From Hyunsoonleella aquatilis (GTDB lineage: Bacteria; Bacteroidota; Bacteroidia; Flavobacteriales; Flavobacteriaceae), in the NCBI RefSeq assembly GCF_014270105.1, contig NZ_JACNMF010000003.1, forward strand, positions 248,001 to 312,000: DNA of 64,000 nt, read 5' to 3'. Positions 2,182 to 62,123 of the stretch are shown piece by piece. Numbering within the stretch: position 1 is the first letter of the stretch; each line of letters begins with the position of its first letter. The notes beneath the pieces are model-generated. The model did no database searches. It saw only the letters and a list, made by a program, of their open reading frames with translations, and was not told the origin of the DNA. Position numbers and translations under genes: made by a program.

Positions 2182-2227
2182 CCATGATTGTACAGGATAG
2201 CTAAAAAACAAAAGTATTTTATATTGT
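2182..2227 (+). promoter_or_regulatory. regulon promoter 1: direct-repeat operator plus -7 box
   Basis: Half-sites CATGATT (2183-2189) and CAGGATA (2193-2199), then 20 nt, then the -7-like TATATTGT (2220-2227), 63 nt before the ATG at 2291. Same architecture and spacing as seven other promoters in the window. Confidence 0.65.
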
Positions 2228-2290
2228 GTCGGTCTATAGGAGTTTTCTATAGGGTAAAACTATTATTAACTAATAAACATTTAATTTATT

Positions 2291-3157
2291 ATGAAAAAAA
2301 TTACATTAAGAATTAGTGCATTTTTATTATTTGCCATGTTTGCGCTTCAAGTACAAGCTCAACCATGTCCTGAACTATGGCTTGAGCCAGGTACTTATAA
2401 GCTTGCAGTATGTACTGAAACTACTCCTCCTACTGATGCGGCGACCGAGCTTTACATGACCATTAATAGCTCTTCTGGTGCTTTAGAATGGGCTGCATTA
2501 TTACCGGGCGATGATCCAACTCAAGTTTGGACGGTAACAGACCATAGAACGCCAGCTTCTTCTGGGTATGTGGAAATTTGGGCATCAATTCCTGGTGTTG
2601 GAGACTTTACCATGGCTGTAGATCAATCAACTTTAGATGGGTCCGGATCAGATCCTGAAATTACGCTTACTGTTGTACCAGGTCAACCGATTGGTGATAA
2701 CACTGATCCAAACTACGGTTATGACCAGTTTCAAAGAAGAAAAGCGACTGGTTGGTCTGGCTCTGGAAACAATGCATTGTTCGCAAAACCTCCAGGACAA
2801 GGAAACTTAAGATATAGAGACGCTCCAGCTGCAGCAGGTGACCCAGTAAATTTTCAAAGTCCGGGTGCAATTGGCGCACTTCGATTCATTCTTGTATCTA
2901 CATTAAGCAATGATGAGTTTGATACAAGTTCAATATTTGTGTCTAACCCTGTAAATGATGAAATCAGTATTGAAGGTTTGACTTCTAATGTAGAAAAAGT
3001 TACTGTATTCTCACTTGTAGGTAAAGAGGTTTTATCAAGAGAATTAAGTGGCGAAACATCACTTAAATTGGATGTTAGCGCATTTACTAGCGGTATGTAC
3101 TTAGTTAATTTCACTGGAAATGGTGGAAGCTTTACTAAAAAAGTATTAAAGCTGTAA
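2291..3157 (+). CDS. secreted protein of unknown function with T9SS sorting domain
   Basis: The 288-residue product starts with a signal peptide (residues 1-23, ending VQAQ) and ends with a T9SS type A sorting domain (about 212-288; pattern VFSLVGKEV...GMYLVNFTGNGG...KKVLKL). The middle (25-205) is rich in Trp, Pro, Thr and Gly, with two Cys near its start, and looks all-beta. I do not recognise the family. It is likely exported and anchored at the cell surface. It is a single-gene unit: preceded by the regulon operator (2182-2227) and followed by a strong terminator (3191-3232). Its regulation with the rhamnosidases and lyases suggests a role in glycan binding or cleavage, which is inference only. 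Confidence 0.8.
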   Translation: MKKITLRISAFLLFAMFALQVQAQPCPELWLEPGTYKLAVCTETTPPTDAATELYMTINSSSGALEWAALLPGDDPTQVWTVTDHRTPASSGYVEIWASIPGVGDFTMAVDQSTLDGSGSDPEITLTVVPGQPIGDNTDPNYGYDQFQRRKATGWSGSGNNALFAKPPGQGNLRYRDAPAAAGDPVNFQSPGAIGALRFILVSTLSNDEFDTSSIFVSNPVNDEISIEGLTSNVEKVTVFSLVGKEVLSRELSGETSLKLDVSAFTSGMYLVNFTGNGGSFTKKVLKL

Positions 3158-3190
3158 GTAAGGCCAATACCTTATTTAATAAAGTTTTTT

Positions 3191-3232
3191 AAAAACATCC
3201 TATGCTGATATTGAGCATAGGATGTTTTTTTT
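3191..3232 (+). terminator. strong rho-independent terminator
   Basis: A 16-bp stem (3191-3206 with 3214-3229; core ACATCCTATGCT / AGCATAGGATGT) with a 7-nt loop, followed by a T-run. It separates the gene at 2291 from rhaM. Confidence 0.9.
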
Positions 3233-3252
3233 GATTTAAATATTATGATACT

Positions 3253-3567
3253 ATGCAGAGATTAGCATTTAAAATGAAATTGAACAAAGGGCAAAAGGAT
3301 GCCTATAAAAAAAGGCATGACCAGCTATGGCCAGAATTGAAACAACTACTTAAAGACAATGGCGTAAGTGAGTACTCTATATTTTTGGATGAAGAAACCA
3401 GTACGTTATTTGCGTTTCAAAAAGTATCCGGAGAGGGAGGGTCTCAGGATTTAGCCGATAATCCTATTGTTAAAAAGTGGTGGGATTTTATGGCTGATAT
3501 CATGGAAACCAATCCGGACAACTCGCCTGTTTCAATACCTTTGGAGGAGTTGTTTTATTTAGAGTAG
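3253..3567 (+). CDS. rhaM: L-rhamnose mutarotase
   Basis: The 104-residue cytoplasmic protein has the length and pattern of RhaM, which interconverts the alpha and beta anomers of L-rhamnose so that free sugar released by rhamnosidases can enter isomerisation. The family's catalytic His is at position 22 (KKRH22), Tyr41 is in GVSEYSI, and the tandem Trp at 76-77 is in KKWWDFMADIM, all as expected for the family. It lies between a terminator and the operator of the lyase gene at 3693, without a recognisable operator of its own, so it may use a local promoter or read-through. Its presence is one of the best indications that the target glycan contains rhamnose. Confidence 0.92.
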   Translation: MQRLAFKMKLNKGQKDAYKKRHDQLWPELKQLLKDNGVSEYSIFLDEETSTLFAFQKVSGEGGSQDLADNPIVKKWWDFMADIMETNPDNSPVSIPLEELFYLE

Positions 3568-3603: not shown

Positions 3604-3649
3604 ACAGTATAGGGCAGGACACTTTTTATTTGATATGGATGTAATTTTA
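3604..3649 (+). promoter_or_regulatory. regulon promoter 2: direct-repeat operator plus -7 box
   Basis: Half-sites CAGTATA (3605-3611) and CAGGACA (3615-3621), 20 nt, then TAATTTTA (3642-3649), 43 nt before the ATG at 3693. Confidence 0.7.
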
Positions 3650-3692: not shown

Positions 3693-6170
3693 ATGAAAAA
3701 GAATTATTTTAAGATAGGTAGAGCGACAATGGTTGCAAAACTGCTTGTTTTACTTTTGGCTTCCTTTATATCCGAGGCTCAAGTTACCCTAGAGGCAGAA
3801 GTGAAAGTATCAGACTTAGGGCTTCACTTAAATGGGGATAAGGTTGCCGCCAACGCCCCAGATAACGGTGATGATGATAAGTATGACCGTTACTTTGGTT
3901 CTACCATCACTGCAAAGGGGGATTGTATTAAGTCTTATGGTGATTACGTGTTCATGACTTGGTACCGTGGAGGTAAAACAGACCGTCATGTTATGTTGAC
4001 TAGGTACAATACGGTTACTGGCTCCATGGCAACTATAGAGTTTCCTCATAGGCATACAGGATATCTAAATCAATGGTGGATTGGGGAAGCTCATAATGCT
4101 ATTGCTATTGGAATAAGCCCGATAGATGGGACAATACACTTATTGTATGATATGCATGCGTATAGTGCTAACAGGCCTTCTAATGGTAGTTTGGCAAATG
4201 ATTATTTTAGGTACTCCTACTCATTGCCAAATACTGCAGGATTGCCCGATGCCGATTTCACCCTCGATAAGTTCGTGCAAAGTTCAAACGGCATGTACAA
4301 GCATTTAAAAATGCCAGGTATTGCTCCACAGTCAGAGTTTCTTGAATTAACCTACCCGCATTTCTTTTTAAACGATGATGGCGATTTGTTTATGTGGATG
4401 CGTAGAGGGGGGCATACCAACGGGATGTACAAATTTATAAGGTATGATGCTAGTACAGGTAATTGGGGTAATTTCGTGGATTTTAATAGTTTAAATGCTA
4501 ACCGTCAGCCGGGTATCCAGTATAATTGGGGACTATACGGAACCATTAAATATGAAAATGGAAAAATAAGAATTGCATATCAAAGAAGGTTAGGAAATAG
4601 TCAAGATAAGTTTAGCCATCAAAATGGAGTGTATTATGCCTATTCCGATAATCAAAATGGCGTAGGTGGATGGAACAATCATAAAGGCGAAAGTTTTAAC
4701 ACGCCACTGTACGATTCCGATTTTATAAAGGTAATGGAACCAGGTGATTATGTGCAGACTACCGTTAAAGATAAAGTGCATATTGTAGGTGGTTTTGATT
4801 GGACGGTAACTGCTAATGAAGATGTGCATATTATCAGCAGAGTAAAGGACAATGAAAATAACGTTACAAAGTATTTACATACATATAAACCTTCAGGAGC
4901 TACGGATTTTATAACTTCAGAAGATTTTTCAGGTGGTGAAGCGGTTTATACTTCGGGCAATAGTGTGTTTTTAATCGGATTGAAAAATGGACGTGTATTT
5001 GTAGAAAAAGCAGAAGGGGGAACTAACAATTTCACAAGAGTTTATGAAGCAACAACAGGTAAGCACTTTAGGCACGGAAGGGTTCACATAGCTAACGGTA
5101 AAGCTTATTATTATTTAATGGAAAATCTATCCGGTAGCGCGCAACCTATATACCTTCAGATTATCGATTTGGACATTGTGCAAGAACCGTTCAGGGTTGC
5201 TTTAACCAACCCGAGTAACGGAGAAACTGTTTATACAGGTGAAACTGTGCAGATTGCCGCAGATGCAGTTGATGAAAACGGCAGTATTTCAAAGGTAGAG
5301 TTTTTGGTTGATGGTTCGTATTTTGGTGAAGATAGTTCTGAACCCTATTTTGTTGATTGGGCGCCAGCTATTGACGGTAGCTATACCCTTCAGGCAGTAG
5401 CTTACAATGGAAATAATGAAACGGTGTCTTCAACTGAAATAACGGTTAATGCTCAAACTTTTGATCCGACAGATTTAACAGGACAGGTTTATAGAATAAA
5501 AAATGTTGAAACAGGAAAATATCTAGAATCGTCAACAACTAGTGGAGATGTATTTAGTAGTGATTATATTTCCGGTAATGACGCTATAAACTGGACTTTT
5601 GTGAAATCAACAGTGAGTGGAACCGAATATTATAATATAGATAGTGAAGTTCGCGGTGTTTTAAGAGGCGCTGGTGCAGGAGCTGGTAATGCCATAATAA
5701 GCACGACTAGGTCATCACCAAATACAGACGTTGATAAAGTCTGGACAGCCTATTATATTCAAGATGAAGATGTTTATAGGTTTGCAGTTAAAGACGGTAG
5801 TAACTTCTTATATCATGATGCTATTGATGTATTTTATAATAAAACTGCTGACATTACGGATACTCGAAGCAAATGGAAAGTCGAATTAGCGAGTAATGCA
5901 CCTCTTAGTTTAGACGATAAGGAACTTGTGTCGTCATCGATTAAGGTGTATCCTAACCCGAGTTCAAAGCGTTTTACGGTGTTGCTCAATGGGTTTAATA
6001 AGGCCAGTATTGTTATAAATGATATGCTAGGTAAAGAAGTTTATCGAAAAACCATTACCAAGGATAGACTGGAAATTGAAAACAATGGACGCTTTGCCCC
6101 AGGATTATACCTGATAAAGGTAGTTGATGATCTACAGAGGGTAAGCCATACAAAATTAGTAATAAGATAG
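3693..6170 (+). CDS. secreted BNR-propeller ulvan-lyase-like protein, multidomain, T9SS-exported
   Basis: The 825-residue product has a signal peptide (1-30), a BNR-4-type beta-propeller of about 460 residues (30-490), a bacterial Ig-like domain (~498-590; 'LTNPSNGETV... KVEFLVDG'), a ricin-type beta-trefoil-like domain (~598-735; 'YRIKNVETGKYLES'), and a T9SS sorting domain (~745-825; VYPNPSS...). The propeller contains FPHRHTGY and EAHNAIAIG, in the style of the seven-bladed-propeller ulvan lyases (PL24/PL25 families), which cleave rhamnose-3-sulfate to uronic acid linkages by beta-elimination. The lyase assignment is inferred from fold family and context. The trefoil probably binds carbohydrate. 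It is transcribed from its own operator and ends at a terminator. The next gene is a paralogue over the propeller only. Confidence 0.75.
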   Translation: MKKNYFKIGRATMVAKLLVLLLASFISEAQVTLEAEVKVSDLGLHLNGDKVAANAPDNGDDDKYDRYFGSTITAKGDCIKSYGDYVFMTWYRGGKTDRHVMLTRYNTVTGSMATIEFPHRHTGYLNQWWIGEAHNAIAIGISPIDGTIHLLYDMHAYSANRPSNGSLANDYFRYSYSLPNTAGLPDADFTLDKFVQSSNGMYKHLKMPGIAPQSEFLELTYPHFFLNDDGDLFMWMRRGGHTNGMYKFIRYDASTGNWGNFVDFNSLNANRQPGIQYNWGLYGTIKYENGKIRIAYQRRLGNSQDKFSHQNGVYYAYSDNQNGVGGWNNHKGESFNTPLYDSDFIKVMEPGDYVQTTVKDKVHIVGGFDWTVTANEDVHIISRVKDNENNVTKYLHTYKPSGATDFITSEDFSGGEAVYTSGNSVFLIGLKNGRVFVEKAEGGTNNFTRVYEATTGKHFRHGRVHIANGKAYYYLMENLSGSAQPIYLQIIDLDIVQEPFRVALTNPSNGETVYTGETVQIAADAVDENGSISKVEFLVDGSYFGEDSSEPYFVDWAPAIDGSYTLQAVAYNGNNETVSSTEITVNAQTFDPTDLTGQVYRIKNVETGKYLESSTTSGDVFSSDYISGNDAINWTFVKSTVSGTEYYNIDSEVRGVLRGAGAGAGNAIISTTRSSPNTDVDKVWTAYYIQDEDVYRFAVKDGSNFLYHDAIDVFYNKTADITDTRSKWKVELASNAPLSLDDKELVSSSIKVYPNPSSKRFTVLLNGFNKASIVINDMLGKEVYRKTITKDRLEIENNGRFAPGLYLIKVVDDLQRVSHTKLVIR

Positions 6171-6387: not shown

Positions 6388-6433
6388 CCCATATACTACA
6401 GGATATTATAAAATCTAATTTTTTGTAATTTCA
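6388..6433 (+). promoter_or_regulatory. regulon promoter 3: direct-repeat operator plus -7 box
   Basis: Half-sites CCATATA (6389-6395) and CAGGATA (6399-6405), 20 nt, then TAATTTCA (6426-6433), 35 nt before the ATG at 6469. The -7 box matches only TAnnTT. Confidence 0.6.
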
Positions 6434-9515: not shown

Positions 9516-9561
9516 ACAGTAAAGAGCAGGATAAATATGTGTTTTTTATGCTTTAGATTTA
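9516..9561 (+). promoter_or_regulatory. regulon promoter 4: direct-repeat operator plus -7 box
   Basis: Half-sites CAGTAAA (9517-9523) and CAGGATA (9527-9533), 20 nt, then TAGATTTA (9554-9561), 27 nt before the ATG at 9589. The 18-nt operator is almost the same as that at 3604. Confidence 0.7.
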
Positions 9562-9588: not shown

Positions 9589-11763
9589 ATGGGAAAAAGA
9601 CCTTTAAGGATCCATGCTGCCCTCTATTTGTTTCATTGTTTTTTGTTTTATGCATGTAACAAAAAGGAAAACAAAGTAAATATTGTTACCTTATCTGACA
9701 CACCGCAGGTTTCATTTGCTTTAAGGGATGTTGAATCGGCTTTGGGCTCGTTGTATAGGGTTATTGATACTAAACTTACGGATAAAGCAGATATAGTTTT
9801 ATCCATAAGAGATATTGACACCCTAAAACATGAAGGTTTTAAAATCGATGTCACCAACAATAAAGTAGAGGTTATTGGGCGTGACGAAGCAGGTTTAATG
9901 TACGGCACCTTGGAACTTGCAGAGCAATTAAAACTTTACGGATTTGATGGTGTAAAACCAATGGTTCGTAATCCCTACTTAGAAATGCGTGGGCCTAAAT
10001 TTAATATACCATTGGATGTACGTACACCTAGTTATACCGATGTTTCTGATGTGGCTCAGCACAATATACCGCACATGTGGGATTTTAGTTTTTGGAAGGA
10101 TTATATTGATTCTATGGCACGTTACCGGTATAACTACATTTCATTATGGAGCTTGCATCCGTTTCCATCTTTGGTAAAGGTGCCAGGATATGAAGATATT
10201 GCGTTAGATGATGTTCAACGTTCTACCGTAGAATGGGAGGAAAATTATAATCTTATGGCCATTGGTTTTGATGCACCAGAAATTTTGGAAAATGTAGAAG
10301 TTTTAAAAAGAATAACGATTGACGAAAAAATAGAATTCTGGAAAAAAGTGATGGCCTACGGAAAGAGCAGGAACATTGATTTTCATATCATCACATGGAA
10401 CATTTTTGACTATGGTACACAAGGGAAATATGGCATCACAGACGATAGAGATAATGAAATTACCACGGATTATTTTAGAAAAAGTACCAAGCAACTGTTT
10501 GTTACTTATCCAGATTTAGCTGGTATTGGGTTGACAACAGGAGAGAACATGAAAGGTGCTAATCACCAAGAACGCGAAGATTGGGCTTATAAGACTTATG
10601 GCCTTGGTATTTTAGATGCAGCCAAGGAAATGCCTGAGCGACAGTTTAAATTTATTCATAGGCAACATCAGTCAGGTGCAAAGGAAATTGCAGAAAAATT
10701 TAAAGCTGTGGTTGAAGCAGACAACGTGGAGTTTTTATTTTGTTTTAAGTATGCAAAAGCGCACGTTTATAGTGCTACCCAGCAACCGTATCACGAAGAT
10801 GCCAACTATTTACAACAGATCGAGGGCATGAAAACCTTATGGGGATTACGTAATGATGATACCTTTTACTTCAGGTGGGGTGCACCAGATTTTACAAGAG
10901 AGTTTATTAATAACCTACCTCATGACGATGTTGCAAAAGGCATTTATTTTGGCTCGGACCAATGGATTTGGGGACGCGATTTTTTGACCAAAGAACCAAT
11001 AAAATCCAATCAAATCGAAGTAGAAAAACATTGGTATCAGTGGCTATTATGGGGCAGGTTAAGTTACGACCCTACGATATCCAATGAACGATTTAAAGAT
11101 ATCTTGGCAGGTCGTTTTTCGGGTATCGATGCAGATAAATTATTTTCCGCATGGCAAAATGCCTCTATGGTTTACCCATTGACTACAGGTTTTCATTGGG
11201 GAAGTCTCGATTTTCAATGGTATATTGAAGGTTGTAAAAGTAGACCCAAACAGGCGGAGAATGAAACCGGGTTTCATGATGTTAATCGGTTTATCTCACT
11301 TGGGGTACATCCTAAATCAGGAAATCAATCCATTCCAGATTATGTAGAAATGATTTCCGGAGGGAACACCACTACTTTAAAAACACCTTTGGAAGTTTCA
11401 GAAAAACTTATTACTGTCGCAGAAAGTGCTTTAAAAGAATTGGAGGGAATTGAAAAAAACAACGATAAAGAATTGCAATTCACATTAAACGATATTAGAA
11501 CTGTATCCTTTTTAGGAAAGCATTATGCCTACAAAATTGAAGGCGCAACTTATTTAGCATTATTTAGAAATTCTAATAAAAAGGAGTACCAAGATTTGGC
11601 AGTGAAAGCCTTAGAAAATGCATTAGGTTTTTGGAAGCAGTACGTACACCAAGCCATGTTGCAAAATCATAATCCTTTATGGACTAATAGAGTGGGCATT
11701 GTAGATTGGAATCAAATTACCAAATGGGTAGAACAGGATATTTATATAGCTAAAAATGAATAG
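9589..11763 (+). CDS. GH67-like (alpha-glucuronidase superfamily) lipoprotein
   Basis: The 724-residue product has a lipoprotein signal peptide (LFYAC, Cys at ~23). An N-terminal GH67/GH20-type domain follows (~30-125; VEVIGRDEAGLMYGTLELAEQL). The next block is a TIM-barrel region (~130-500) containing DFHIITWNIFDYG and GIGLTTGENM, whose Glu is a candidate catalytic acid. The C-terminal part is helical (~500-724). GH67 enzymes remove glucuronic acid from xylan side chains, but this protein is divergent and its substrate is unknown. In this locus a uronic-acid-containing oligosaccharide is plausible (inference). It is first in a four-gene unit driven by the operator at 9516 and overlaps the next gene by 8 bases. 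The truncated gene at the left edge is a distant relative. Confidence 0.65.
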   Translation: MGKRPLRIHAALYLFHCFLFYACNKKENKVNIVTLSDTPQVSFALRDVESALGSLYRVIDTKLTDKADIVLSIRDIDTLKHEGFKIDVTNNKVEVIGRDEAGLMYGTLELAEQLKLYGFDGVKPMVRNPYLEMRGPKFNIPLDVRTPSYTDVSDVAQHNIPHMWDFSFWKDYIDSMARYRYNYISLWSLHPFPSLVKVPGYEDIALDDVQRSTVEWEENYNLMAIGFDAPEILENVEVLKRITIDEKIEFWKKVMAYGKSRNIDFHIITWNIFDYGTQGKYGITDDRDNEITTDYFRKSTKQLFVTYPDLAGIGLTTGENMKGANHQEREDWAYKTYGLGILDAAKEMPERQFKFIHRQHQSGAKEIAEKFKAVVEADNVEFLFCFKYAKAHVYSATQQPYHEDANYLQQIEGMKTLWGLRNDDTFYFRWGAPDFTREFINNLPHDDVAKGIYFGSDQWIWGRDFLTKEPIKSNQIEVEKHWYQWLLWGRLSYDPTISNERFKDILAGRFSGIDADKLFSAWQNASMVYPLTTGFHWGSLDFQWYIEGCKSRPKQAENETGFHDVNRFISLGVHPKSGNQSIPDYVEMISGGNTTTLKTPLEVSEKLITVAESALKELEGIEKNNDKELQFTLNDIRTVSFLGKHYAYKIEGATYLALFRNSNKKEYQDLAVKALENALGFWKQYVHQAMLQNHNPLWTNRVGIVDWNQITKWVEQDIYIAKNE

Positions 11764-15812: not shown

Positions 15813-15858
15813 TGGAGATACATCAGGACAGTTTTCGAAAAAAAAAATAGGATATTGC
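15813..15858 (+). promoter_or_regulatory. regulon promoter 5: direct-repeat operator plus weak -7 box
   Basis: Half-sites GGAGATA (15814-15820) and CAGGACA (15824-15830), 20 nt, then GATATTGC (15851-15858), 36 nt before the ATG at 15895. This is the weakest -7 match, but its ATATTG core lines up with promoter 1. Confidence 0.5.
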
Positions 15859-25504: not shown

Positions 25505-26545
25505 ATGTTAAACTACATTCGGATAGATGGCAACTCAATGGTGCCAAAATATATTCAGATTATCAATTCTATAATTGATAACGTATCCTCGGGAAACATT
25601 AAGATTGGAGATAAAATACCATCCATAAATACTTTAAGCCAAGAATTTTATCTATCAAGAGATACCGTAGAGCGGGCTTACAATATTTTAAAGAAAAAAA
25701 ATGTTGTGGTTTCCGTCCGTGGTAGAGGGACCTATATAGCTCAAGCCGATTTAGTTAGAGACAAAAAAATATTGTTTTTGGTAAACAAGCTGAGTCCGTA
25801 TAAAATGAAGGTATATAATGCCTTTGTGGATGCTATCGGTGACAACTGTCAAGTGGATATACACAGCTTCCATTGTGACCAAGCACTATTTGTAGAGTTA
25901 ATGGGTAAGTACAAATCTGCCTATGATTACTTTGTGATTCTGCCTCATTTTAGGACAGAAAATTTGTCATATACCGGTTTTACCGAAGAAGTGAATAATG
26001 CTATTAATGGTATCCCAAAGGAGCAGTTAGTTTTATTGGATAATAACAATCATCAACTGCCAGGTGATTTTATTGAGGTATATCAAGATTTTGAAAACGA
26101 TATATTTACAGCTTTAGAAACGGGTCATGAAAAAATTTCTAAATATGATAAGCTGAACTTAGTTTGCCCGAGGAAAACCTTCTATCCTTATCCAACAAAA
26201 ATTTTGGATGGTTTCAGGAAATACTGTTCGTTTAATAATCTTCACTTTGAAATACTTGAGGAAATTTCAATGGAATTTGAGGTAGCTCCAAAAAATCTTT
26301 ATATCACAATTGAAGAAGAGGATCTTGTAAAAGTCATATCTCGAATTAGAAAAAATGGTTTTAAGTTGGGGTCGGACGTTGGAGTAATATCATACAATGA
26401 CGCGCCTCTAAAACAAGTGTCCAATATTACGGTTATTACTACAGATTTTGAGGATATTGGAATCAGGGCTGCCAAAATGATTTTAGAAAGTAGAATAGAA
26501 AAGGAAAAAGTAGCCTTTAGATTTATTGACAGAGGATCTGCTTAG
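25505..26545 (+). CDS. GntR-type regulator with periplasmic-binding-protein-like effector domain, copy 1
   Basis: The 346-residue product has an N-terminal GntR winged helix (1-75; KIPSINTLSQEFYLSRDTVERAYNIL), in which the recognition helix is readable. A LacI/periplasmic-binding-like sugar-sensing domain follows (~85-345; VGVISYNDAPLKQVSNITVITTDFEDIG). This combination is common for sugar-responsive regulators in Bacteroidota. No signal peptide, so cytoplasmic. It is paralogous to the two minus-strand genes at 59398-60447 and 60593-61633. Single-gene unit with its own -7 box and a terminator. A role in sensing rhamnose or an oligosaccharide is inferred from position. Confidence 0.85.
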   Translation: MLNYIRIDGNSMVPKYIQIINSIIDNVSSGNIKIGDKIPSINTLSQEFYLSRDTVERAYNILKKKNVVVSVRGRGTYIAQADLVRDKKILFLVNKLSPYKMKVYNAFVDAIGDNCQVDIHSFHCDQALFVELMGKYKSAYDYFVILPHFRTENLSYTGFTEEVNNAINGIPKEQLVLLDNNNHQLPGDFIEVYQDFENDIFTALETGHEKISKYDKLNLVCPRKTFYPYPTKILDGFRKYCSFNNLHFEILEEISMEFEVAPKNLYITIEEEDLVKVISRIRKNGFKLGSDVGVISYNDAPLKQVSNITVITTDFEDIGIRAAKMILESRIEKEKVAFRFIDRGSA

Positions 26546-26597: not shown

Positions 26598-26757
26598 AAC
26601 CCATTTAACTACAGGGATAAAATCTTAGCCATAATTAAAAGGAAAATATGGAGGGTGTATTTTTAGAATATAATGCTACGTCTATTCATTTTTGGAATAA
26701 ATTACCGAGAACTCTAAAACATTTTTTAAATTGTACTTTAGGTTATATAAGCTACAA

Positions 26758-29700
26758 ATGAAACGCAGTATATTTTATTGTTTTTTTTTATTTCAGATTG
26801 GTTTTTTACAATCTCAGGTTAGTGATTTTAATTTCAAAAATTTTAATTTATCTGATGGTTTATCAAGCAGTACTGTAAATTATATAAAGCAGGATAAACT
26901 GGGGCAAATCTGGTTGGCTACAAATAATGGTCTAAATAAATTTAATGGAGAAGAGTTTGTTGTCTATAGAAATACTCCAGAAGATAAATCAACGATAAGC
27001 AGCAACGATGTTCATAATATCCTAGAGGATAAAGAAGGAAATTTATGGATAGGGACTTACAACGGTTTAAATAAATATGAACCTCAAAAAGATAAATTTA
27101 AAAGATATTTCAAAACATCTGATAAAAATTCATTAAGTGGAGATAGGATTTTTACCAGTTTCGAAATGAAAAATGGAAATATATGGTTTGGAACAGAAGA
27201 TGGTATTTCTATTTATATAAAGAAACAAGACAGTTTTATAAGGTTTCTAAAAAACAGAAAAAAACGTACACTGTTTTTAGACATATATGTAGATAAGAAA
27301 AACACCGTTTGGTTGGCTACTTTTAATGGAATTATACAAGTAGATAGGAGTAAAGAAGGGAAATTTAAATATCAAGAATACCGCTTAAACAATTTGAAAA
27401 AGCGGTTTTTTATATACAAAATATTAGAGGTAGAACCAGGTGTCTTAGCACTAGCAACAAAGTATCACGGGTTTTTATTATTCGATAAAAAAACAAAGAA
27501 ATTCAGTTGTCCTGAAGAATTGAATTTTTTTAAAAATATAGAAATTAAAGATTTATATAAAGATGAGGAAAAAAATCTTTGGTTAGCTACAACTACTGGC
27601 CTTTTTATCGTAACACCTTCAAAAGAAATAATTACTGTTAATAGTAGTGTTTACGAAGATATTGGAAGTGTAAAAAACCATTTTAAAAAAATATATAAAG
27701 ATAATAATGGTTCAATTTGGATAGGTACCCAAGATATTGGTGTTATGACTTGGCACAAATTTAATCAGAACTTTAAAAGATTTAAAAATTCCAGGACCTT
27801 CAATAACATTGCCAATTGTATAGCTTCGGATAATGAAAAAAATATTTACTACGGTACAGAGGGAGGAGATTTAAATAAAATAGATAGTAATGGTATAGTA
27901 ACAAAAGTTTTTGATGTTCAAAATCAAATAAAAACAACAGTTTATCCTATTAAGACTTTATACAGAGATGGAAATTTACTCTGGATTGGAGCAATGAAAA
28001 ATGGTATTAAGATTTATGATTTGCAATCAAAAAAAGAGCTTAAAAACTATCTTTCCCCTAAGCTGAGAAATTTTTTAAAAGATGTATCTGTTTTAGATAT
28101 TAAAAAAGGATTTGGTAATAATGTATGGATAGCAACCATAGGCAGAGGTTTGATTAAATACGAAATCAAACAGAAAAAAATGCGGGTTTTCAATTCACGT
28201 CAGTTAAAAAGTAGTTACTTTAAAGTTATTTATAAAGACAAAAAAAACTTAATTGTTGTTGGTTCAGATCATTTAAGTTTTTTAGAGGCAAAAGAGAAAG
28301 GGAGTTTTAAAATATTGAATTATCCAACCATAGTAGACTCCAGTAGGTTAGATATTGTTTCAGTACATAAAGATAAAGCAGGAATGGTCTGGGTAGGTTC
28401 TAGAACAAGAGGGCTTTATAAATTCACAAAAGATAAGAAATACGAAAGTGTAATTGTTTCTGCTAAAAATAGAATTTTTACAGTCAATGCAATTTTGGAG
28501 AGCAAGAAGGGGTTACTTTGGCTAAGTACAGATAAGGGTATTGTTAAGTATGATCCATTAAAACAAGAGAGCATAATTTATAATCAACAAACCATAGCTC
28601 AGGATAACGATTTTAGAGTAAATGCCGCTCTTAAAGAAAACAACAAATTTTATTTTGGAGCAAAGCAAGGAGTAATAACTTTTGAACCCGATAATATTGT
28701 TACATTAAAAAACATGCCAAGGGTAATTTTATCTTACCTTAAAATAAAAAACAATGAAACGGGTGCTTTAAATAAAAATGAAAGCATATTAAAAAATATA
28801 AGTTATTCCAAGGAAATTGTTTTGCCCCATAATAATGCTAGTTTTTCTATAAATTATGCTTTACCTAATTACATCAATACCAATAATAATCAATACGCAT
28901 ATAGGCTCAAAGGGTTAGATGATAATTGGTTGTATACAAAACAAACCGAAGCATTTTATACCTTACAAAATGCAGGTACTTATACTTTTCAAGTCAAAGC
29001 TGCCAGTTATGATGGTGTTTGGAATAATAAAATAACAGAGCTTGATATAACAATTCAACCTGCGCCTTGGCTAACATGGTGGGCTTATACGATTTACTTT
29101 ATTTTGTTTTCTAGTTTAGTGTTCGGTATTTCATGGATTGTTCAATCAAAAGCAAGACTTAAGGACAAACTGGAATTAGAGTTAATTACAAAACGAAATA
29201 GCGACGAATTAAACAAAGCCAAACTTCAATTTTTTACAAATATTTCCCATGAGTTTAGAACACCACTAACTTTAATTTTAGGGCCACTTCAAAACATTCT
29301 CAATGATTATTCTGGCCCTAAGTCTGTTTACAAAAAGTTAAAAATAATGGATGGTAGCGCCAATCATTTACTGAGACTGATTAATAGATTAATGGATTTT
29401 AGAAAATTAGAAAGTAATCAGTTGAAACTAGAAGCTGCAGAAGGAAATATCGTTAAATTTTTACAAGAAATATTTTTGTCTTTTACAGAATATGCTAAAA
29501 ATGGTAGTTATGACTATAATTTTAATACATCACATGACGAAATTCTAGCTTTTTATGATGGGTATAAATTAGAGAGAGTATTCTATAATTTAATATCGAA
29601 CGCTTTTAAGTACACAAAGAATGGAGGTAGTATTAACGTTAGTATTTCTAAAACAGAAGAGGGCGTTGTTATAGAAGTTAAAGATTCTGGACCAGGAATA

Positions 29701-30804
29701 CCTGAGGAGTTTTTAGATAAGATCTTTGATCGGTTTTTTGAAGTTCCAAATTCCAACGAAATGAACAAGGATTTTAATAAAGGTACGGGCATAGGGCTAT
29801 CAATTGCCAGTGGCATTGTCAAATTGCATAAGGGAGAGATAAAAGTTAATAATATAAAACCGCAGGGGGCTGTTTTCACAGTAAAATTAAAGCTTGGCAA
29901 AGTGCATCTGGCTGAAAGCGAAATATTGAAGAGTTTTAAAATGAGTGATGATGTATCCCAGTACGCTACTCAAATTAGTATTTCAGATATAGAAATGAAT
30001 GCTAATACCCCTGAAGATTTAATGATTGAGGAGAAGAAATACACAATTCTTGTTGCCGAGGACAACACTGTTCTAAGGTCATTTATAAAAGAAATACTAA
30101 AGCCAAAATATAACGTCATTCAGGCTGAAAACGGAAAGGTGGCCTTGCAAAAAGCTATAGAGCATTGCCCAGATTTAATTATTAGTGATGTTATGATGCC
30201 CGAGATGGTCGGCACCGAGCTTTGCTCTAAAATAAAGACAACCTTGGCCACAAGCCATATTCCGGTAATCCTATTGACGTCCCGTTCTGCTCTAGTCTAT
30301 AAATTTGAAGGTCTTGAAAGTGGGGCTGATGACTACATTAGCAAACCCTTTAATCTCAAGGAATTTGGTCTTAAAATCCAGAATTTGCTGGAGTTTAAAG
30401 AACGTTTGAAAGGTAAATTTTCATCAAATAAAAACTTTGAAAATCTAGATGTCTCCCTAACATCTTTGGACCAACAGTTGTTTGATAAAGCCCTGGCAGT
30501 AGTAAAAAATAATATCTCAAACCAGGATTTTAACATCGCCCATTTCTGTGAAGAACTGGGAGTTAGCCGTTCAATGCTTTTTACGAAAATAAAAGCCTGG
30601 ACTAATTCAACACCAAACGACTTCATTCAAGACGTGCGATTGAATCAGGCTGCCAAATTGCTAGAGTTGAACAGATTAAACATTGCCGAGATTTCTTATG
30701 AAGTCGGTTTTAAACGGCCCAAATACTTTAGCCAACGTTTTCAAAAAAAGTTTGGCTTGACGCCATCGGAATTTTCGAAGAAATTTACTGGAACTTTCAA
30801 GTAA
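26758..30804 (+). CDS. hybrid two-component system regulator (sensor kinase, receiver, AraC output)
   Basis: I start at the ATG at 26758 (MKRSIFYCFFLFQIGFLQSQ, a signal peptide); an in-frame TTG at 26731 is less likely. The 1348-residue product has a two-component-regulator propeller region (~25-690; repeated LGQIWLAT and GNLWIGT motifs). Next come a Y_Y_Y domain (~700-775), a membrane helix (~780-805), a HisKA domain with His831 (NISHEFRTPL), a HATPase domain (~925-1045; DSGPGIPEEFLDKIFDRF), a receiver with phospho-acceptor Asp1144 (IISDVMMPEM), and an AraC-type DNA-binding domain (~1240-1348). Such proteins sense glycan fragments in the periplasm and activate utilization loci. The AraC domain is the leading candidate to bind the direct-repeat operators. 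Confidence 0.95.
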   Translation: MKRSIFYCFFLFQIGFLQSQVSDFNFKNFNLSDGLSSSTVNYIKQDKLGQIWLATNNGLNKFNGEEFVVYRNTPEDKSTISSNDVHNILEDKEGNLWIGTYNGLNKYEPQKDKFKRYFKTSDKNSLSGDRIFTSFEMKNGNIWFGTEDGISIYIKKQDSFIRFLKNRKKRTLFLDIYVDKKNTVWLATFNGIIQVDRSKEGKFKYQEYRLNNLKKRFFIYKILEVEPGVLALATKYHGFLLFDKKTKKFSCPEELNFFKNIEIKDLYKDEEKNLWLATTTGLFIVTPSKEIITVNSSVYEDIGSVKNHFKKIYKDNNGSIWIGTQDIGVMTWHKFNQNFKRFKNSRTFNNIANCIASDNEKNIYYGTEGGDLNKIDSNGIVTKVFDVQNQIKTTVYPIKTLYRDGNLLWIGAMKNGIKIYDLQSKKELKNYLSPKLRNFLKDVSVLDIKKGFGNNVWIATIGRGLIKYEIKQKKMRVFNSRQLKSSYFKVIYKDKKNLIVVGSDHLSFLEAKEKGSFKILNYPTIVDSSRLDIVSVHKDKAGMVWVGSRTRGLYKFTKDKKYESVIVSAKNRIFTVNAILESKKGLLWLSTDKGIVKYDPLKQESIIYNQQTIAQDNDFRVNAALKENNKFYFGAKQGVITFEPDNIVTLKNMPRVILSYLKIKNNETGALNKNESILKNISYSKEIVLPHNNASFSINYALPNYINTNNNQYAYRLKGLDDNWLYTKQTEAFYTLQNAGTYTFQVKAASYDGVWNNKITELDITIQPAPWLTWWAYTIYFILFSSLVFGISWIVQSKARLKDKLELELITKRNSDELNKAKLQFFTNISHEFRTPLTLILGPLQNILNDYSGPKSVYKKLKIMDGSANHLLRLINRLMDFRKLESNQLKLEAAEGNIVKFLQEIFLSFTEYAKNGSYDYNFNTSHDEILAFYDGYKLERVFYNLISNAFKYTKNGGSINVSISKTEEGVVIEVKDSGPGIPEEFLDKIFDRFFEVPNSNEMNKDFNKGTGIGLSIASGIVKLHKGEIKVNNIKPQGAVFTVKLKLGKVHLAESEILKSFKMSDDVSQYATQISISDIEMNANTPEDLMIEEKKYTILVAEDNTVLRSFIKEILKPKYNVIQAENGKVALQKAIEHCPDLIISDVMMPEMVGTELCSKIKTTLATSHIPVILLTSRSALVYKFEGLESGADDYISKPFNLKEFGLKIQNLLEFKERLKGKFSSNKNFENLDVSLTSLDQQLFDKALAVVKNNISNQDFNIAHFCEELGVSRSMLFTKIKAWTNSTPNDFIQDVRLNQAAKLLELNRLNIAEISYEVGFKRPKYFSQRFQKKFGLTPSEFSKKFTGTFK

Positions 30805-30921: not shown

Positions 30922-30967
30922 ACAGGACACCTCAGGATTAGATTTACCCCTTAATATGTTAAGTTTG
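30922..30967 (+). promoter_or_regulatory. regulon promoter 6: best direct-repeat operator plus perfect -7 box
   Basis: Half-sites CAGGACA (30923-30929) and CAGGATT (30933-30939) are nearly identical to each other. After 20 nt comes TAAGTTTG (30960-30967), an exact -7 consensus, 38 nt before the ATG at 31006. Confidence 0.8.
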
Positions 30968-34000: not shown

Positions 34001-34071
34001 GAGCTAATAATATCAAATTAGAAACCACGGGAGAGAGCGCACCCTACATTGACGAGTTGTTTATAGATTAA
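31006..34071 (+). CDS. GH2-family glycosidase, lipoprotein, with C-terminal binding-type domains
   Basis: The 1021-residue product has a lipoprotein signal (ISLSC, Cys at ~25). Domains: GH2 jelly roll (~33-195; FDGVYMNSEVWVNG), Ig-like (~200-300), TIM barrel (~300-600) with acid/base Glu419 (SLGNETHSD) and likely nucleophile Glu479 (ISTEAPHTW), further beta-domains (~615-800), a chitobiase-C-like segment (~815-870; VLYTLDGKNPETDG) and a CBM6/35-like C-terminus (~885-1021). GH2 includes beta-galactosidases, beta-glucuronidases and related retaining enzymes; the exact substrate cannot be told. First gene of the 31006-42484 unit, directly behind the best operator. Confidence 0.9.
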   Translation: MNKVSKCSKIYTRVSVLLLIISLSCSPQQTEISSANFNDNWLFILDEDNADFSNEELDDSSWTNLDLPHDWSFEKGVRKGGDQGQGGGYHDGGIGWYRKYFNVSKESLSKTTYINFDGVYMNSEVWVNGNRLGKRPYGYISFRYDISKYLKAGQNTIAVRVDNSLEPSARWYHPCGIYAGVSLIEKNLTHIELNSIFITTPSIAEDKASVNVKLNVVNASDNLETKITIQASDGTVLTSAKSGVEASKSEINLEVETPKLWSPESPNLYKAVTQILNGEEVLDEKTTVFGFKTVEWKTETGFWLNGENVKLKGVCEHWEGGPVGGAWTKPMLRWKLKLLKGMGINAIRPSHNPTPPMFYDICDEIGLLVMDEIFDGWHKKAPQDYGKQAFDEWWQRDVEEWITRDRNHPSIFVWSLGNETHSDVAPEMVKFGKGLDPTRLFTSGAGNPEDMDIQGVNGGSETKSFIENNKLTKPFISTEAPHTWQTRGYYRTQTWWRDNELPGTYELPNLTDKEIFFYEGLNPKDWRNRKQRFNSSYDNATVRVSARKYWEVMRDTPWHSGHFRWTGFDYYGEAGLVHGGLPFNLFMGGAIDVAGFEKDLYHFYRSQWTEEPMIHILPHWTHPRMEKGTKIPVWVYSNTDEVELFLNGKSLGKDKPGTVWNEMQCEWLVPYEEGTIEAVGYIDGKEVNRTSFLTAKQPSTLQNTVNKLDAEGDFRASYILTSEGMDADDNLNPYAENRVYYNIVGDVDKVSMENGNPIDPTSRTKADYRSLFFGKTRLFLEEGQNAKEASVVVGSILGDKALYVSNEITIDVQSVSLFGNDTSNDFEVLYTLDGKNPETDGLAYNQPFKVEDGTTVKAIVKQNGALVLTMKETFGKNEGLFWGDERSADMWIGRGVNISAEEGILTGSAKPSRDARRFKGSGFVDFKGGEGSITWYQENDGEPGDYSIRFRYMHNNEGKLHPMKLYVNDEYVRNIEFKATGGWEKEWKFVPTIIVLQSGANNIKLETTGESAPYIDELFID

Positions 34072-47097: not shown

Positions 47098-47889
47098 ATG
47101 AAAATTACTTTGCTCTTTTTAATAGTAACTAGTTTTTTGTTTTCGTGTAAAAAAGACAAGACTGCAAATTTTACAAAAATTAATAAAGACCAACATTGGA
47201 CGTTGGTTTTTGATGACGATTGTACCAAAGACTGGACAAAAAACTGGACGTTAGATGGTCTAATTGCAACTGTTGAAAACTCAAAAGATGGTATGCATTT
47301 TAAAGCTGGTTCAGAGGCTTACAATGACGCTCATCATGCTGTGTTATGGACGAAAGATGCTTACAGTGGAGATGTGAAAATTGAATTTGATTACATCAAA
47401 ACAGACGATGAAAATCGATTTGTAAACATTCTCTACATTCAAGCAACTGGAGATGGAGAAGGTGTTCATGAAAAAGATATCTCAAAATGGAAAAAAAAGC
47501 GTGAAGTTCCTGCCATGAGAGAATATTTTGAAAATATGAATACGTTTCATATCAGTTTTTCGGCTTTTGGTAATAAAGGTGATGGTTTTTACTATGTTAG
47601 AGCAAGGAGGTATCCTAAAGCCAAAGGTCAACCTTTCAACTCAATTGTAGTTGAACCTTCTTATGATTTGCAAGGGTTTTTTGAAACGGGCAAAACCTAT
47701 CATATCACGGCTGTTAAAACTTCGGAAAAATTAAGTTTTAAAATGGAGCTTGAAGGTAAAGCAGAATATTTTGAATGGGACATTTCAAAAATAGCACCGA
47801 TAAAAGAGGGAAAAATAGGTTTACGCCACATGTACACGCGTTCTGCGATTTATAAGAATTTCAAGATTTACACAAAAGGTGCAAGATAG
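47098..47889 (+). CDS. DUF1961-family lipoprotein, concanavalin-like fold
   Basis: The 263-residue product has a lipoprotein signal (FLFSC). The mature part (~28-260) resembles DUF1961: HWTLVFDDDCTKDWTKNWTLDG at the start, then HHAVLWTKDAYSGDVKIEFDYIKTD, and KEGKIGLRHMYTRSAIYKNFKIY at the end, a layout typical of a concanavalin-A-like jelly roll. Function in the family is unproven; such proteins appear in glycan loci of Bacteroidota and may bind or cleave carbohydrate. The operator for the next unit begins inside its last codons. Confidence 0.75.
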   Translation: MKITLLFLIVTSFLFSCKKDKTANFTKINKDQHWTLVFDDDCTKDWTKNWTLDGLIATVENSKDGMHFKAGSEAYNDAHHAVLWTKDAYSGDVKIEFDYIKTDDENRFVNILYIQATGDGEGVHEKDISKWKKKREVPAMREYFENMNTFHISFSAFGNKGDGFYYVRARRYPKAKGQPFNSIVVEPSYDLQGFFETGKTYHITAVKTSEKLSFKMELEGKAEYFEWDISKIAPIKEGKIGLRHMYTRSAIYKNFKIYTKGAR

Positions 47890-47926
47890 TTCAGGATGGT
47901 TTTTTAGTGCTGAACTCATACATTGT
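47881..47926 (+). promoter_or_regulatory. regulon promoter 7: direct-repeat operator plus -7 box
   Basis: Half-sites CAAGATA (47882-47888, overlapping the end of the DUF1961 gene) and CAGGATG (47892-47898), 20 nt, then TACATTGT (47919-47926), 38 nt before the ATG at 47965. Confidence 0.65.
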
Positions 47927-59285: not shown

Positions 59286-59397
59286 GTTCGTACAAATTTT
59301 AAATGGTTATATCAATTCATAAATATAAAAACAATTATTTCAAAACATTAAAATGTAGGGCTTTCGGTATTCCAATTTTCAGGTGAGGCAAAATTGG

Positions 59398-60447
59398 CTA
59401 CAGCGATTCTCTTTCAACAAAATTAAACGGGACCTTTACTTTAATTCCGCAGGACTTATTCAAAATAATCTCGGCCGCTGATTCACCCATAACCTTGAAG
59501 TCTGTAGAAATTGTAGTGATGCCAAGTAATTCCTTTAAAGGCGTTTCGTTATAAGAAATTATGCCAATATCTTTGCCAAGAATGAACTCATCCTCGCGTA
59601 ATTGCTTAACAAGGCTTACCAGATCGGATTCTTCAATAGTAATAAACAAATCGCCACGTTTCAAAATCATATCATCATATACCTTGTCTAATACCTCGAA
59701 TTCGAATTTGTGCTCCACACAAAACTTCCTGAAACCATGTAAAATACGCCTAGGATAAGGATAAACGGCTTTCTCGGGGTATATCAATACAAGCTTTTCG
59801 TATCGCTTAATTTTTTGAAGGCCCTCCGTCAAGGCAAAGTAAATGTCATTTTCAAAGTCTTGATAAATTTCATTTGTCTTTCCGTTAAAGATGGGTTTGC
59901 TATTATCGAGCAAAATAAATTTTTCGGGGGGCAAGGACAGTAATTTTTCCAAAACTTTATCCGTAAAGCTAACATGCTTCAAGTCCTCTGCCTTAAAATG
60001 AGGCATAATTACAAAGTAGTCATATGCCGCTTTATTTTTATCCAATAAATTGAGAAACAAAGTTTCATCACAATGATACACATGTAAATCGGTATGCGAA
60101 TTGGCACCAATACTGTTGATAAAGTGATTGTAGGCTCTTAATTTATAGGTGCTTAGCTTGTTTATTAGGAAAAGTATGTTGACTTTGGAAATTAATTTGG
60201 TCCTGGTTATGTAGAACCCTTTTCCGCGTATTGAGGTAATTATATTGCGCTCCTTTAATATGCTATAGGCCTTTTCGACAGTATCACGAGATAGATAAAA
60301 CTCTTCGCTAAACATATTTATGGATGGGATCTTTTGATCCATCGTCAAGTTTCCAATTGAAATATTATGGATAATTGAATCTATGATCTGCTGGTATTTT
60401 GGCACCCTAGAGTTTTCATCAATCGTTATGAATTTCATCATTTCCAT
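59398..60447 (-). CDS. GntR-type regulator with sugar-binding-like domain, copy 2
   Basis: I choose the ATG at 60447 (MEMMKFITIDEN); the reading frame extends to a TTG at 60471, and 60441 or 60438 are also possible. The 349-residue product has the GntR winged helix (QKIPSINMFSEEFYLSRDTVEKAYSIL) and a LacI/periplasmic-binding-like effector domain (IGIISYNETPLKELLGITTISTDFK). It is strongly similar to the neighbouring gene at 60593-61633 and less so to 25505-26545. The two adjacent genes are a tandem duplication. Confidence 0.85.
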   Translation of the reverse strand: MEMMKFITIDENSRVPKYQQIIDSIIHNISIGNLTMDQKIPSINMFSEEFYLSRDTVEKAYSILKERNIITSIRGKGFYITRTKLISKVNILFLINKLSTYKLRAYNHFINSIGANSHTDLHVYHCDETLFLNLLDKNKAAYDYFVIMPHFKAEDLKHVSFTDKVLEKLLSLPPEKFILLDNSKPIFNGKTNEIYQDFENDIYFALTEGLQKIKRYEKLVLIYPEKAVYPYPRRILHGFRKFCVEHKFEFEVLDKVYDDMILKRGDLFITIEESDLVSLVKQLREDEFILGKDIGIISYNETPLKELLGITTISTDFKVMGESAAEIILNKSCGIKVKVPFNFVERESL

Positions 60448-60592
60448 TAGGGAGGGAGATTTACGAGTCAAAAAATTTTAATTACTGAAAAGTAAAACTT
60501 TTTTTTGAAAAAATTCAATAAAGAAGCAACTCTTTATGGAGTTTTTGTATGCGAATAAGGCAGTATGTTCTGGGGTAAAGAGATTTGCCAAC

Positions 60593-61633
60593 CTACATTG
60601 AATTCCTATTTGTAAACCTGAAAGGAACTTTAACTTTACCTTTTTTATTGTCCAGAATCATATGCGCTGCGGCTTCTCCCATTAACTTAAAGTCCGTGGA
60701 TATTGTTGAAATACCCAGAAGTGCTTTTAAGGGTGTTTCGTTGTAAGATATAATACCAATATCTTTTCCCAGAGAAAGTTTCTTCTCTTTTAGTAATCCC
60801 ATTAAGTTTATCAGATCATTTTCTTCAATTGTGATAAACAAATCCCCTTTAAACAGGATCATATCATCATGTACCTTATCAAAAATATCAAAATCTAAAT
60901 TATGCTTTACGCAAAACCGTGTGAAGCCTCGAGTAATTCTTTTTGGATACGGATGTACCGCTTTTCTTGGATATATTAGGATTATCTTTTTGTACCGGGC
61001 TATCTTTTTTACCCCCTTGTTAAGTGCATTGAAAATGTCCTGTTCATAATCCTCATAAACCGTAATTGGGTTATCTTCAATTGGGATTTGTGCGTTACCC
61101 ATAATCACAAGTTTGTTCCGGGGAATTTTGCTCATGGCCTGGGTTACATCCACTGTTGTACTCGTATGTTGTTGATCTTCAGTTTTAAAGTGGGGCATAA
61201 TAACGTAATGGTCGTAGGTCCTTTTATGTTTTTCCAATAAATTCAGAAATAGGGATTCGTCACAATGGTAGATGTGAAGATCGACGTAAGCGTTGGGGCC
61301 AATACTTTTCATAAAGGAATAGTATATTTCCATCTTGTACCAACTCAATTTATTAATGAGAAATAAAATATTTAGTTTGTTGATCAGTTTGGTACGGGAA
61401 ATATAAAAGCCCTTTCCTTGTATCGAGGTAATTATATTGCGTTCTTTTAGTATGCTGTAAGCCTTTTCTACGGTATCTCTGGAAAGGTAAAATTCTTCAC
61501 TAAAACTATTGATTGAAGGAATCTTTTGGTCCATCTTAAGATTTCCCATTGAAATATTAAGGATTATCGAATCAATAATCTGCTGGTATTTGGGTACCCT
61601 GGAATTTTTGTCAATCTTTATAAACTTCATCAT
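60593..61633 (-). CDS. GntR-type regulator with sugar-binding-like domain, copy 3
   Basis: The 346-residue product (start MMKFIKIDKNSRVPKYQQ) has the same architecture as copy 2, including the identical recognition-helix segment EEFYLSRDTVEKAYSIL. That identity implies the two tandem copies bind the same or a very similar DNA site. The effector domains differ more, so they may answer to different sugars (inference). It is divergent from the bifunctional aldolase/dehydrogenase gene, with a 490-bp region between them, which makes it a candidate regulator of that gene. No regulon operator is seen in front of it. Confidence 0.85.
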   Translation of the reverse strand: MMKFIKIDKNSRVPKYQQIIDSIILNISMGNLKMDQKIPSINSFSEEFYLSRDTVEKAYSILKERNIITSIQGKGFYISRTKLINKLNILFLINKLSWYKMEIYYSFMKSIGPNAYVDLHIYHCDESLFLNLLEKHKRTYDHYVIMPHFKTEDQQHTSTTVDVTQAMSKIPRNKLVIMGNAQIPIEDNPITVYEDYEQDIFNALNKGVKKIARYKKIILIYPRKAVHPYPKRITRGFTRFCVKHNLDFDIFDKVHDDMILFKGDLFITIEENDLINLMGLLKEKKLSLGKDIGIISYNETPLKALLGISTISTDFKLMGEAAAHMILDNKKGKVKVPFRFTNRNSM

Positions 61634-62123
61634 TTCCTTGATATTTTAATCTCAATTTTCTAATAAGCAAAGTTGCCATGCCAACATTTTGGGAGATATG
61701 CCATTTAGGCAAGCATATCGATGATGAAAGCAATAATTTAGAATATGTGCTTATCATAATTCATATGATTACAGTTGCAAAAATATAAAAGAAACTGATT
61801 GTTAAACTTACGACAAAAATAATTGTTGATTGTGTCCTTCTGTACTTTAAATTTACTGTTGGTTCTTATGGTACGAATTCCGTTGCTTGCTGTTACAATG
61901 GCTTTAGCATAAGCCAAATATTTCTAGGGTGTTCATTTTATATGACGGAATCGGACAGTTTATTTTTAAAGGAATTGGGCTGCGAAGTATTCTGCAAGGC
62001 AATGTTAAAAAATCTATATCTAATACAGTTTTGATATCAATGGCGTCTCAAACGGTACAGTACAGGATAGGAATGTTTGTCCCCTACAGTATTTTTGGTT
62101 TTATAACTTATTTTAATAAAAAA
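61634..62123. other. 490-bp divergent regulatory region
   Basis: No gene seen. It lies between the minus-strand GntR-type gene (start 61633) and the plus-strand aldolase/dehydrogenase gene (start 62124). On the minus strand CAAAAATA near 61775 and again near 61815 read as TATTTTTG, possible -7 boxes for the GntR-type gene. The plus-strand operator and -7 box lie at 62052-62097. Confidence 0.55.
62052..62097 (+). promoter_or_regulatory. regulon promoter 8: direct-repeat operator plus perfect -7 box
   Basis: Half-sites CGGTACA (62053-62059) and CAGGATA (62063-62069), 20 nt, then TATTTTTG (62090-62097), an exact TAnnTTTG, 26 nt before the ATG at 62124. Confidence 0.75.

Follow-up and report, generated by a model that had tools for sequence, protein, structure and literature searches.

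We analyzed a 64,000-nucleotide stretch of the Hyunsoonleella aquatilis genome (the window; positions 248001 to 312000 of contig NZ_JACNMF010000003.1, called C15 here, in a genome of 3.93 Mb) and found that it carries a recurrent promoter element, in which a direct repeat with a 10-bp period is followed at a preferred distance of 20 nt by a TAnnTTTG-type -7 box. The element stands ahead of genes for the breakdown of ulvan and rhamnose, and across related genomes its occurrence tracks that of a GntR-family regulator, represented in the window by the gene pair at 59398 and 60593. These sites are probably the operator and core promoter of a regulon that is activated by this GntR-family factor, which has a LacI-type sensor.

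Eight copies of the element had been described in a first-pass annotation of the window as a repeat CARKATA/CAGGAYA, and its account of their geometry held throughout. All eight second half-sites were correctly placed (2193, 3615, 6399, 9527, 15824, 30933, 47892, and 62063), each follows a 3-nt gap, and each is separated by exactly 20 nt from the -7 octamer. Seven of the eight octamers match TAnnTT, the two at 30933 and 62063 are perfect TAnnTTTG, and the gaps from octamer to ATG measure 63, 43, 35, 27, 36, 38, 38, and 26 nt, within the 26 to 63 nt claimed. The repeat itself is real, but its first half-site is better given as CAGKAYA. Seven of the sites are strong (23.5 to 34.2 bits), whereas 15824, with 11.4 bits, is a weak one. 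When up to two mismatches to the originally described repeat were allowed, it occurred 10 times in the window (the eight sites plus 26880 and 31608) versus 2.62 ± 1.65 expected, a count that none of 100 shuffles reached. The sites and the genes that follow them are listed here; T9SS stands for type IX secretion system.

2183..2227, plus strand: operator-promoter CATGATT-gta-CAGGATA, 20 nt, TATATTGT; 23.9 bits; followed by 2291-3157 (T9SS-sorted protein) and rhaM, 3253-3567
3605..3649, plus strand: operator-promoter CAGTATA-ggg-CAGGACA, 20 nt, TAATTTTA; 30.6 bits; followed by 3693-6170 (BNR_4 plus ulvan-lyase beta-trefoil)
6389..6433, plus strand: operator-promoter CCATATA-cta-CAGGATA, 20 nt, TAATTTCA; 23.5 bits; followed by the gene with its ATG at 6469 (BNR_4, T9SS)
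9517..9561, plus strand: operator-promoter CAGTAAA-gag-CAGGATA, 20 nt, TAGATTTA; 26.3 bits; followed by 9589-11763 and the genes next in line
15814..15858, plus strand: weak, doubtful site GGAGATA-cat-CAGGACA, 20 nt, GATATTGC; 11.4 bits; followed by a GH78 rhamnosidase gene, 15895-18618
30923..30967, plus strand: operator-promoter CAGGACA-cct-CAGGATT, 20 nt, TAAGTTTG; 25.0 bits; followed by a GH2 gene, 31006-34071, and GH106 genes
47882..47926, plus strand: operator-promoter CAAGATA-gtt-CAGGATG, 20 nt, TACATTGT; 24.3 bits; followed by a GH106-like gene, 47965-50853, and sulfatase genes
62053..62097, plus strand: operator-promoter CGGTACA-gta-CAGGATA, 20 nt, TATTTTTG; 34.2 bits; followed by rhaEW and the rhamnose operon

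A logo built from 170 distinct aligned sites in ten genomes reads CAGKAYAGTACAGGATAG-N19-TAnnTTTR, with nearly flat flanks in which no further conserved box was seen upstream. Selection of these sites had required three or more of the four letters of TA..TT to be present; hence, the -7 columns cannot be counted as independent support. The logo correlates with itself at an offset of 10 bp (0.94), revealing a direct repeat and confirming the 10-bp period proposed for the half-sites. A hidden palindrome was rejected, the best inverted alignment reaching only 0.41. The logo also has a weaker 5-bp period (correlation of 0.59; CAGKA-YAGTA-CAGGA-TAG). Three or more boxes at 10-bp steps are found at C15:191831 and at promoters in three of the relatives (G007, G013, and G055), an arrangement that hints at cooperative oligomers.

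The eight transcription units proposed as a regulon form a coherent set but are a small part of the whole. In a matrix scan of C15:100001-347000, 28 sites exceeded 17 bits; all fall within 133520-322829, and the window holds seven. Genome-wide, the first-pass pattern combined with the 20-nt spacing and TAnnTT has 26 matches at up to two mismatches, and 22 of these fall inside the 190-kb stretch C15:133-323 kb, which makes up 4.8% of the genome. Random genome-wide matches at this spacing had been named as the outcome that would speak against a regulon; the clustering observed favors one. The second box starts outside every mechanically called open reading frame (ORF) in 27 of the 28 sites; such ORFs cover 93% of the stretch. 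The exception, C15:310063 (62063 in the window), lies inside the longest rhaEW frame, yet before its conserved start at 310124. At C15:235663, the longest reading of the next ORF starts ahead of the -7 box, and at C15:295892 (the 47882..47926 site) the first box overlaps the 3' end of the preceding ORF, 47098-47889. A 29th site, C12:311612, lies on another contig directly upstream of the following gene.

C12:310656-311591 (L042:10656-11591) of the window's genome (G000): PL28 ulvan lyase outside the large locus, site upstream

Three other low-mismatch matches were set aside: C12:761184 is inside an ORF, C15:409888 is inside an open frame, and C17:61731 is inside the span of another GntR gene. 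A three-mismatch site at C15:530717 (L044) precedes a gene that is possibly a further regulon member; its product is T9SS-sorted and matches no other Pfam domain.

The distance between repeat and -7 box was examined with a repeat-only matrix, which had been trained on 24 sites from the window's genome and was applied to approximately 1.36 Mb of sequence drawn from ten genomes. It gave 175 matches above 14 bits, of which 130 had a perfect TAnnTT at 20 nt, compared with a mean of 3.2 (maximum, 12) at other spacings and a mean of 3.2 (maximum, 7) on the opposite strand upstream. Because the training sites had been picked with their -7 box, the clean figure is the one without the window's genome, which is 105 of 143 matches with a perfect TAnnTT at 20 nt and a mean of 2.7 at other spacings. 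The full matrix was also applied to 80 loci of named genomes around close relatives of the GntR protein and gave 149 matches at 20 nt, 90 at 21 nt, and 9 to 63 at 13 other spacings; this comparison is uninformative, since the repeat alone nearly clears the 19-bit threshold, and the repeat-only matrix was used in its place.

The same geometry places the repeat at the -33 position. If the first T of the -7 box is numbered -12 (PMC6847099), the second box spans -39 to -33. The TTTG of a -33 box is absent there, as the last four positions of the second box read GATA in the logo. The -7 box, by contrast, fits the TAnnTTTG of the Bacteroidetes housekeeping sigma factor (sigma ABfr), given the perfect TAnnTT at 130 of the 175 repeat-only matches. 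In Flavobacterium johnsoniae, the -33 motif is described as "much less evident" (PMC6847099).

We next considered which protein tracks these sites, tracing five regulators through 118 related genomes. The following genes of the window are candidates.

60593..61633, minus strand: 346-aa regulator of the GntR family with a LacI-type sensor, transcribed divergently from rhaEW; proposed binder
59398..60471, minus strand: GntR-family paralogue, 357 aa, with the same recognition helix, SRDTVEKAYSILKERN, as 60593; proposed binder
25505..26545, plus strand: GntR-family paralogue, 346 aa, 47 to 50% identical, helix SRDTVERAY
26731..30804, plus strand: hybrid two-component system (HTCS) with AraC-type domain, a binder candidate of the first-pass annotation; unsupported

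An orthologue at least 54% identical to the 59398/60593 pair is present in 18 of the 118 relatives. Three or more sites were found in 16 of these 18 (the exceptions being G012, with two sites, and G060, with one) versus none of the 100 others, where the highest count was two. The rhaEW gene provides a second view of this association. Nineteen genomes, counting the window's own, have both rhaEW and a close GntR, and 18 of them have a site before rhaEW, scoring at least 25 bits with its first base 68 to 94 nt ahead of the RhaEW match; in the 19th, G013, rhaEW begins at the contig edge. Nine of these 18 genomes took no part in matrix training.

All GntR proteins considered here match PF00392, the N-terminal GntR helix-turn-helix, above the cut-off of 27 bits (41.6 bits for 59398, 42.2 for 60593, 48.7 for 25505, and 37.5 for a more distant gene at C15:133612). 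PF13377, the C-terminal LacI-type/periplasmic-binding sensor, scores above cut-off in 60593, 25505, and 133612 and is not among the matches of 59398 at an E value of 1e-6. The AlphaFold model of 60593 is confident (mean pLDDT of 88, pTM of 0.69), and Foldseek comparison of this predicted structure gave LacI-type regulators as best matches, with a probability of 1.00. Sequence comparison matches the DNA-binding domain to GntR structures, including the AraR entry 4egy. No Pfam match to an aminotransferase-like (MocR) C-terminal domain was found in the GntR proteins; NCBIfam MocR models match only the N-terminal 70 to 80 residues, far under cut-off.

Of the three GntR proteins that had been put forward as binders, the 59398/60593 pair emerges as the best candidate, while the third, 25505..26545, is a paralogue that is possibly a second reader of the same sites, judging from its helix. 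It may even be that several paralogues (59398, 60593, 25505, and perhaps 133612) share the operator and respond each to its own sugar, forming an OR gate for the building blocks of ulvan. This would extend the reading of a single GntR-type binder, and we hold it as a serious though tentative possibility. The recognition helices of the four proteins are nearly identical (SRDTVEKAY in 59398 and 60593, SRDTVERAY in 25505, and SRDTVYKAY in 133612), and 133612 has its own site. Countering this, 133612-like GntRs are present in genomes where sites are few or absent (none in G028), and some genomes have many sites yet a single close GntR (12 sites in G056). As sole binder, the 133612 protein was rejected: no orthologue above 35% was found in G013, G022, and G056, and no match at an E value of 1e-40 in G041. 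The site at C15:133520 serves this gene (133612-134613; L032), which adjoins glucuronate genes, and a GntR gene that carries its own site suggests a regulatory cascade.

The mechanism that we propose is as follows. The GntR regulator would sense L-rhamnose or an early rhamnose metabolite and would bind in head-to-tail fashion to a pair of CAGKAYAG boxes offset by one helical turn. The downstream box would occupy the -33 position, setting GntR beside the housekeeping RNA polymerase, and promoters that retain only a TAnnTTTR -7 box would be activated by it. One regulator could then turn on the whole ulvan pathway, from lyases, rhamnosidases, sulfatases, and SusC/D-type transporters to rhamnose and glucuronate breakdown. 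Rhamnose is suggested as the signal because rhaEW is the near-constant neighbor of the regulator gene, and contact with RNA polymerase is suggested because the box lies at one preferred distance, in one orientation, and exactly at -33. The earlier proposal of an activator that replaces a weak -33 element is therefore upheld as far as the half-site covers -33 in a fixed geometry; activation itself is suggested by that geometry. In its full form, the model is of an obligate class II GntR/LacI-type activator whose operator replaces the -33 element: the composite promoter (10-bp direct repeat, 20 nt, -7 box) would drive the rhamnose core regulon of Flavobacteriaceae and would have been copied onto dozens of ulvan genes, such that one monosaccharide signal commands a 190-kb super-locus plus unlinked lyases. 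This full form we favor with some reserve.

Several points weigh against the GntR reading. The co-occurrence of GntR and sites gives a Fisher p of approximately 7e-18 without correction for phylogeny, and as the relatives are not independent, this value overstates the evidence. Moreover, GntR and rhaEW adjoin; thus, the co-occurrence with GntR is partly one with rhaEW, and only three genomes separate the two (G048, G035, and G031, which have rhaEW and only a distant GntR, 37 to 41% identical). G048 and G035, whose recognition helices are altered, have no site before rhaEW, although a same-strand open frame ends 46 nt (G048) and 65 nt (G035) before the rhaEW match, so that rhaEW may lie inside an operon there with its promoter elsewhere. 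In G031, where the helix is still SRDTVEKAY, a half-degenerate site with one good box precedes rhaEW (15.4 bits), and a 25.4-bit match lies elsewhere in the locus. A site above 19 bits is present in all 80 of the loci taken around close GntR relatives in named genomes (the best 80 of 550), with 149 matches versus a mean of 0.2 for ten column-permuted matrices, but these loci were selected by GntR similarity, many Flavobacterium entries among them are near copies, and at least three (L250, L315, and L327) stem from genomes used in matrix training. One of the loci, L295, comes from F. johnsoniae CI04, which has an orthologue of the GntR. As for the sites themselves, 35 of the 206 repeat matches above 12 bits do not show even three of the four TA..TT letters at 20 nt; several of these arise where a repeat of three or more boxes is matched in an additional register or where the spacing is 21 nt, and others apparently lie in coding sequence. 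Of 40 PL28 matches, the 30 with loci were scanned; the 1200 nt upstream contain a site above 19 bits in 22 of them and none in eight. GntR proteins with a LacI-type sensor are better known as repressors (e.g., AraR). The support as a whole lies in sequence comparison, and paralogues may share or divide the sites. Finally, most known GntR operators are palindromic (PMC4494728).

These points bear most directly on the sign of regulation. Instead of activating, GntR bound at -33 could block RNA polymerase until rhamnose frees it, and the combination of GntR helix-turn-helix and AraR-like LacI-type sensor, like the overlap of the site with the promoter, would suit such a repressor. A promoter with only a -7 box might also work without an activator, given how little evident the -33 motif is in F. 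johnsoniae (PMC6847099). A repressor, however, requires neither exact spacing nor orientation, and both are common to 130 of the 175 matches versus about 3 otherwise. Furthermore, in the two divergent intergenic regions with one site per direction (322704/322829 and 239756/239822), each promoter owns its oppositely oriented site. We therefore regard repression as unlikely.

A GntR-family binder is also favored over the HTCS protein encoded at 26731-30804, whose AraC-type domain had been suggested to bind the repeats (as the 26758 protein) and for which we found no support. HTCS proteins do govern polysaccharide loci via direct repeats (PMC3878776), and the gene lies in the cluster. The HTCS motifs described there average 21 bp between sites versus the 10-bp period here, and HTCS and SusR-like motif types are excluded by this period. 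In G005 and G009, genomes with 15 and 17 sites, respectively, scoring of five candidates each yielded no match to the HTCS at an E value of 1e-200. In addition, seven relatives without PL28 (G001, G012, G022, G041, G060, G061, and G075) keep the GntR and 1 to 10 sites each. An HTCS binder is thus very improbable. The sole AraC-cupin protein traced, C15:195960, was likewise rejected as sole binder, having no match at an E value of 1e-20 in G005, G006, G010, G022, and G056 (up to 20 candidates per genome scored). Last, a promoter element for an alternative sigma factor, acting with no regulator, would account for the fixed spacing to a -7-like box but is scarcely credible, as the -7 box is of the housekeeping TAnnTTTG type, two or three boxes at a 10-bp period are not known as a sigma-factor element, and the co-occurrence with GntR would be left unexplained.

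The genes beside the sites are consistent with a role in ulvan use. Pfam families were assigned for 69 ORFs of the 190-kb locus plus a few more. Among them are PL28 ulvan lyases and further lyase-like proteins of the BNR type, rhamnosidases of families GH78 and GH106, and GH2, GH3, and GH43 enzymes, together with many sulfatases, SusC/SusD-type transporters, RhaT, rhamnose mutarotase, and KduI; glucuronate isomerase (UxaC) and mannonate dehydratase (UxuA) represent glucuronate metabolism. At the end of the window stands the first gene of the rhamnose operon.

62124..64000 and on to C15:312229, plus strand: rhaEW-like gene for a 701-aa protein that combines a class II aldolase with a short-chain dehydrogenase

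After it come genes for a rhamnose isomerase-like protein, a rhamnulokinase-like kinase, an aldolase, and a lactate dehydrogenase-like protein; the isomerase-like, rhamnulokinase-like, and dehydrogenase-like assignments rest on NCBIfam matches below curated cut-offs. By family assignment, the genes of the locus would make up a path from ulvan to central metabolism. PL28 is present in 11 of the 118 relatives plus the window's genome, and in four of the relatives (G002, G007, G008, and G009) contigs other than that of the main cluster carry PL28 genes preceded by a site. Ten genes beside further sites in the named loci of other genera were also searched, and their families include two SusC-type receptors, two sulfatases, GH78, GH43, a GDSL esterase, and three DUF-domain proteins.

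The proposed regulon can be compared with several known systems. GntR proteins with direct-repeat operators are known, including NanR, FarR, and NagQ and, among MocR types, GabR, TauR, and PdxR (PMC4494728, PMC5320631). The MocR-type activator TauR, which recognizes direct repeats of CTGGACYTAA, resembles the present case in its GntR helix-turn-helix, helix-turn-spaced direct repeats, activation (here a proposal), and a gene divergent from its target (PMC5320631). Whereas MocR proteins have an aminotransferase-like domain, the GntR of the window has a LacI-type sensor, and whereas MocR repeat distances are described in that source as varying slightly, the promoter distance here is nearly always 20 nt. 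AraR-like GntR proteins share the Pfam architecture (GntR plus Peripla_BP_3), the 4egy match, and the LacI-type chains found by Foldseek; unlike theirs, the operator here is a direct repeat and no palindrome, and the protein would be an activator and no repressor. As with the RhaR proteins of the AraC and DeoR families, the targets belong to rhamnose catabolism, and DeoR-type motifs are direct repeats with a 10- to 11-bp period (PMC3870299). The Bacteroides RhaR, in contrast, is AraC-type with a 21-bp period. Bacteroides HTCS and SusR regulons similarly have direct-repeat operators ahead of polysaccharide utilization genes, but these are spaced by about 21 bp in HTCS regulons and by 67 or 77 bp in SusR regulons versus 10 bp here, and the protein family differs (PMC3878776).

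To our knowledge, the regulation of marine polysaccharide loci outside Bacteroides has been little mapped, and our searches of an open-access paper library gave no description of this motif. The motif is precise enough for regulon members to be predicted from sequence, and it singled out an unlinked ulvan lyase. If the model is correct, it would provide an example of an activator substituting for the Bacteroidetes -33 element, a possible design for inducible promoters in Flavobacterium, and a GntR-type rhamnose regulator for Flavobacteriaceae. The last of these would be a type absent from the catalogue in PMC3870299, where rhamnose regulators are listed as AraC, DeoR, and LacI types and the main text does not contain the term "GntR."

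Two further features of the locus were observed. At C15:159457-162990 (L034:5457-8990), a sulfatase and a GH78 rhamnosidase are joined in one protein. At 42600-44111 of the window, a gene encodes a leucine-rich repeat protein of the BspA type that carries a T9SS tail, and its DNA repeats yield weak false matches to the motif.

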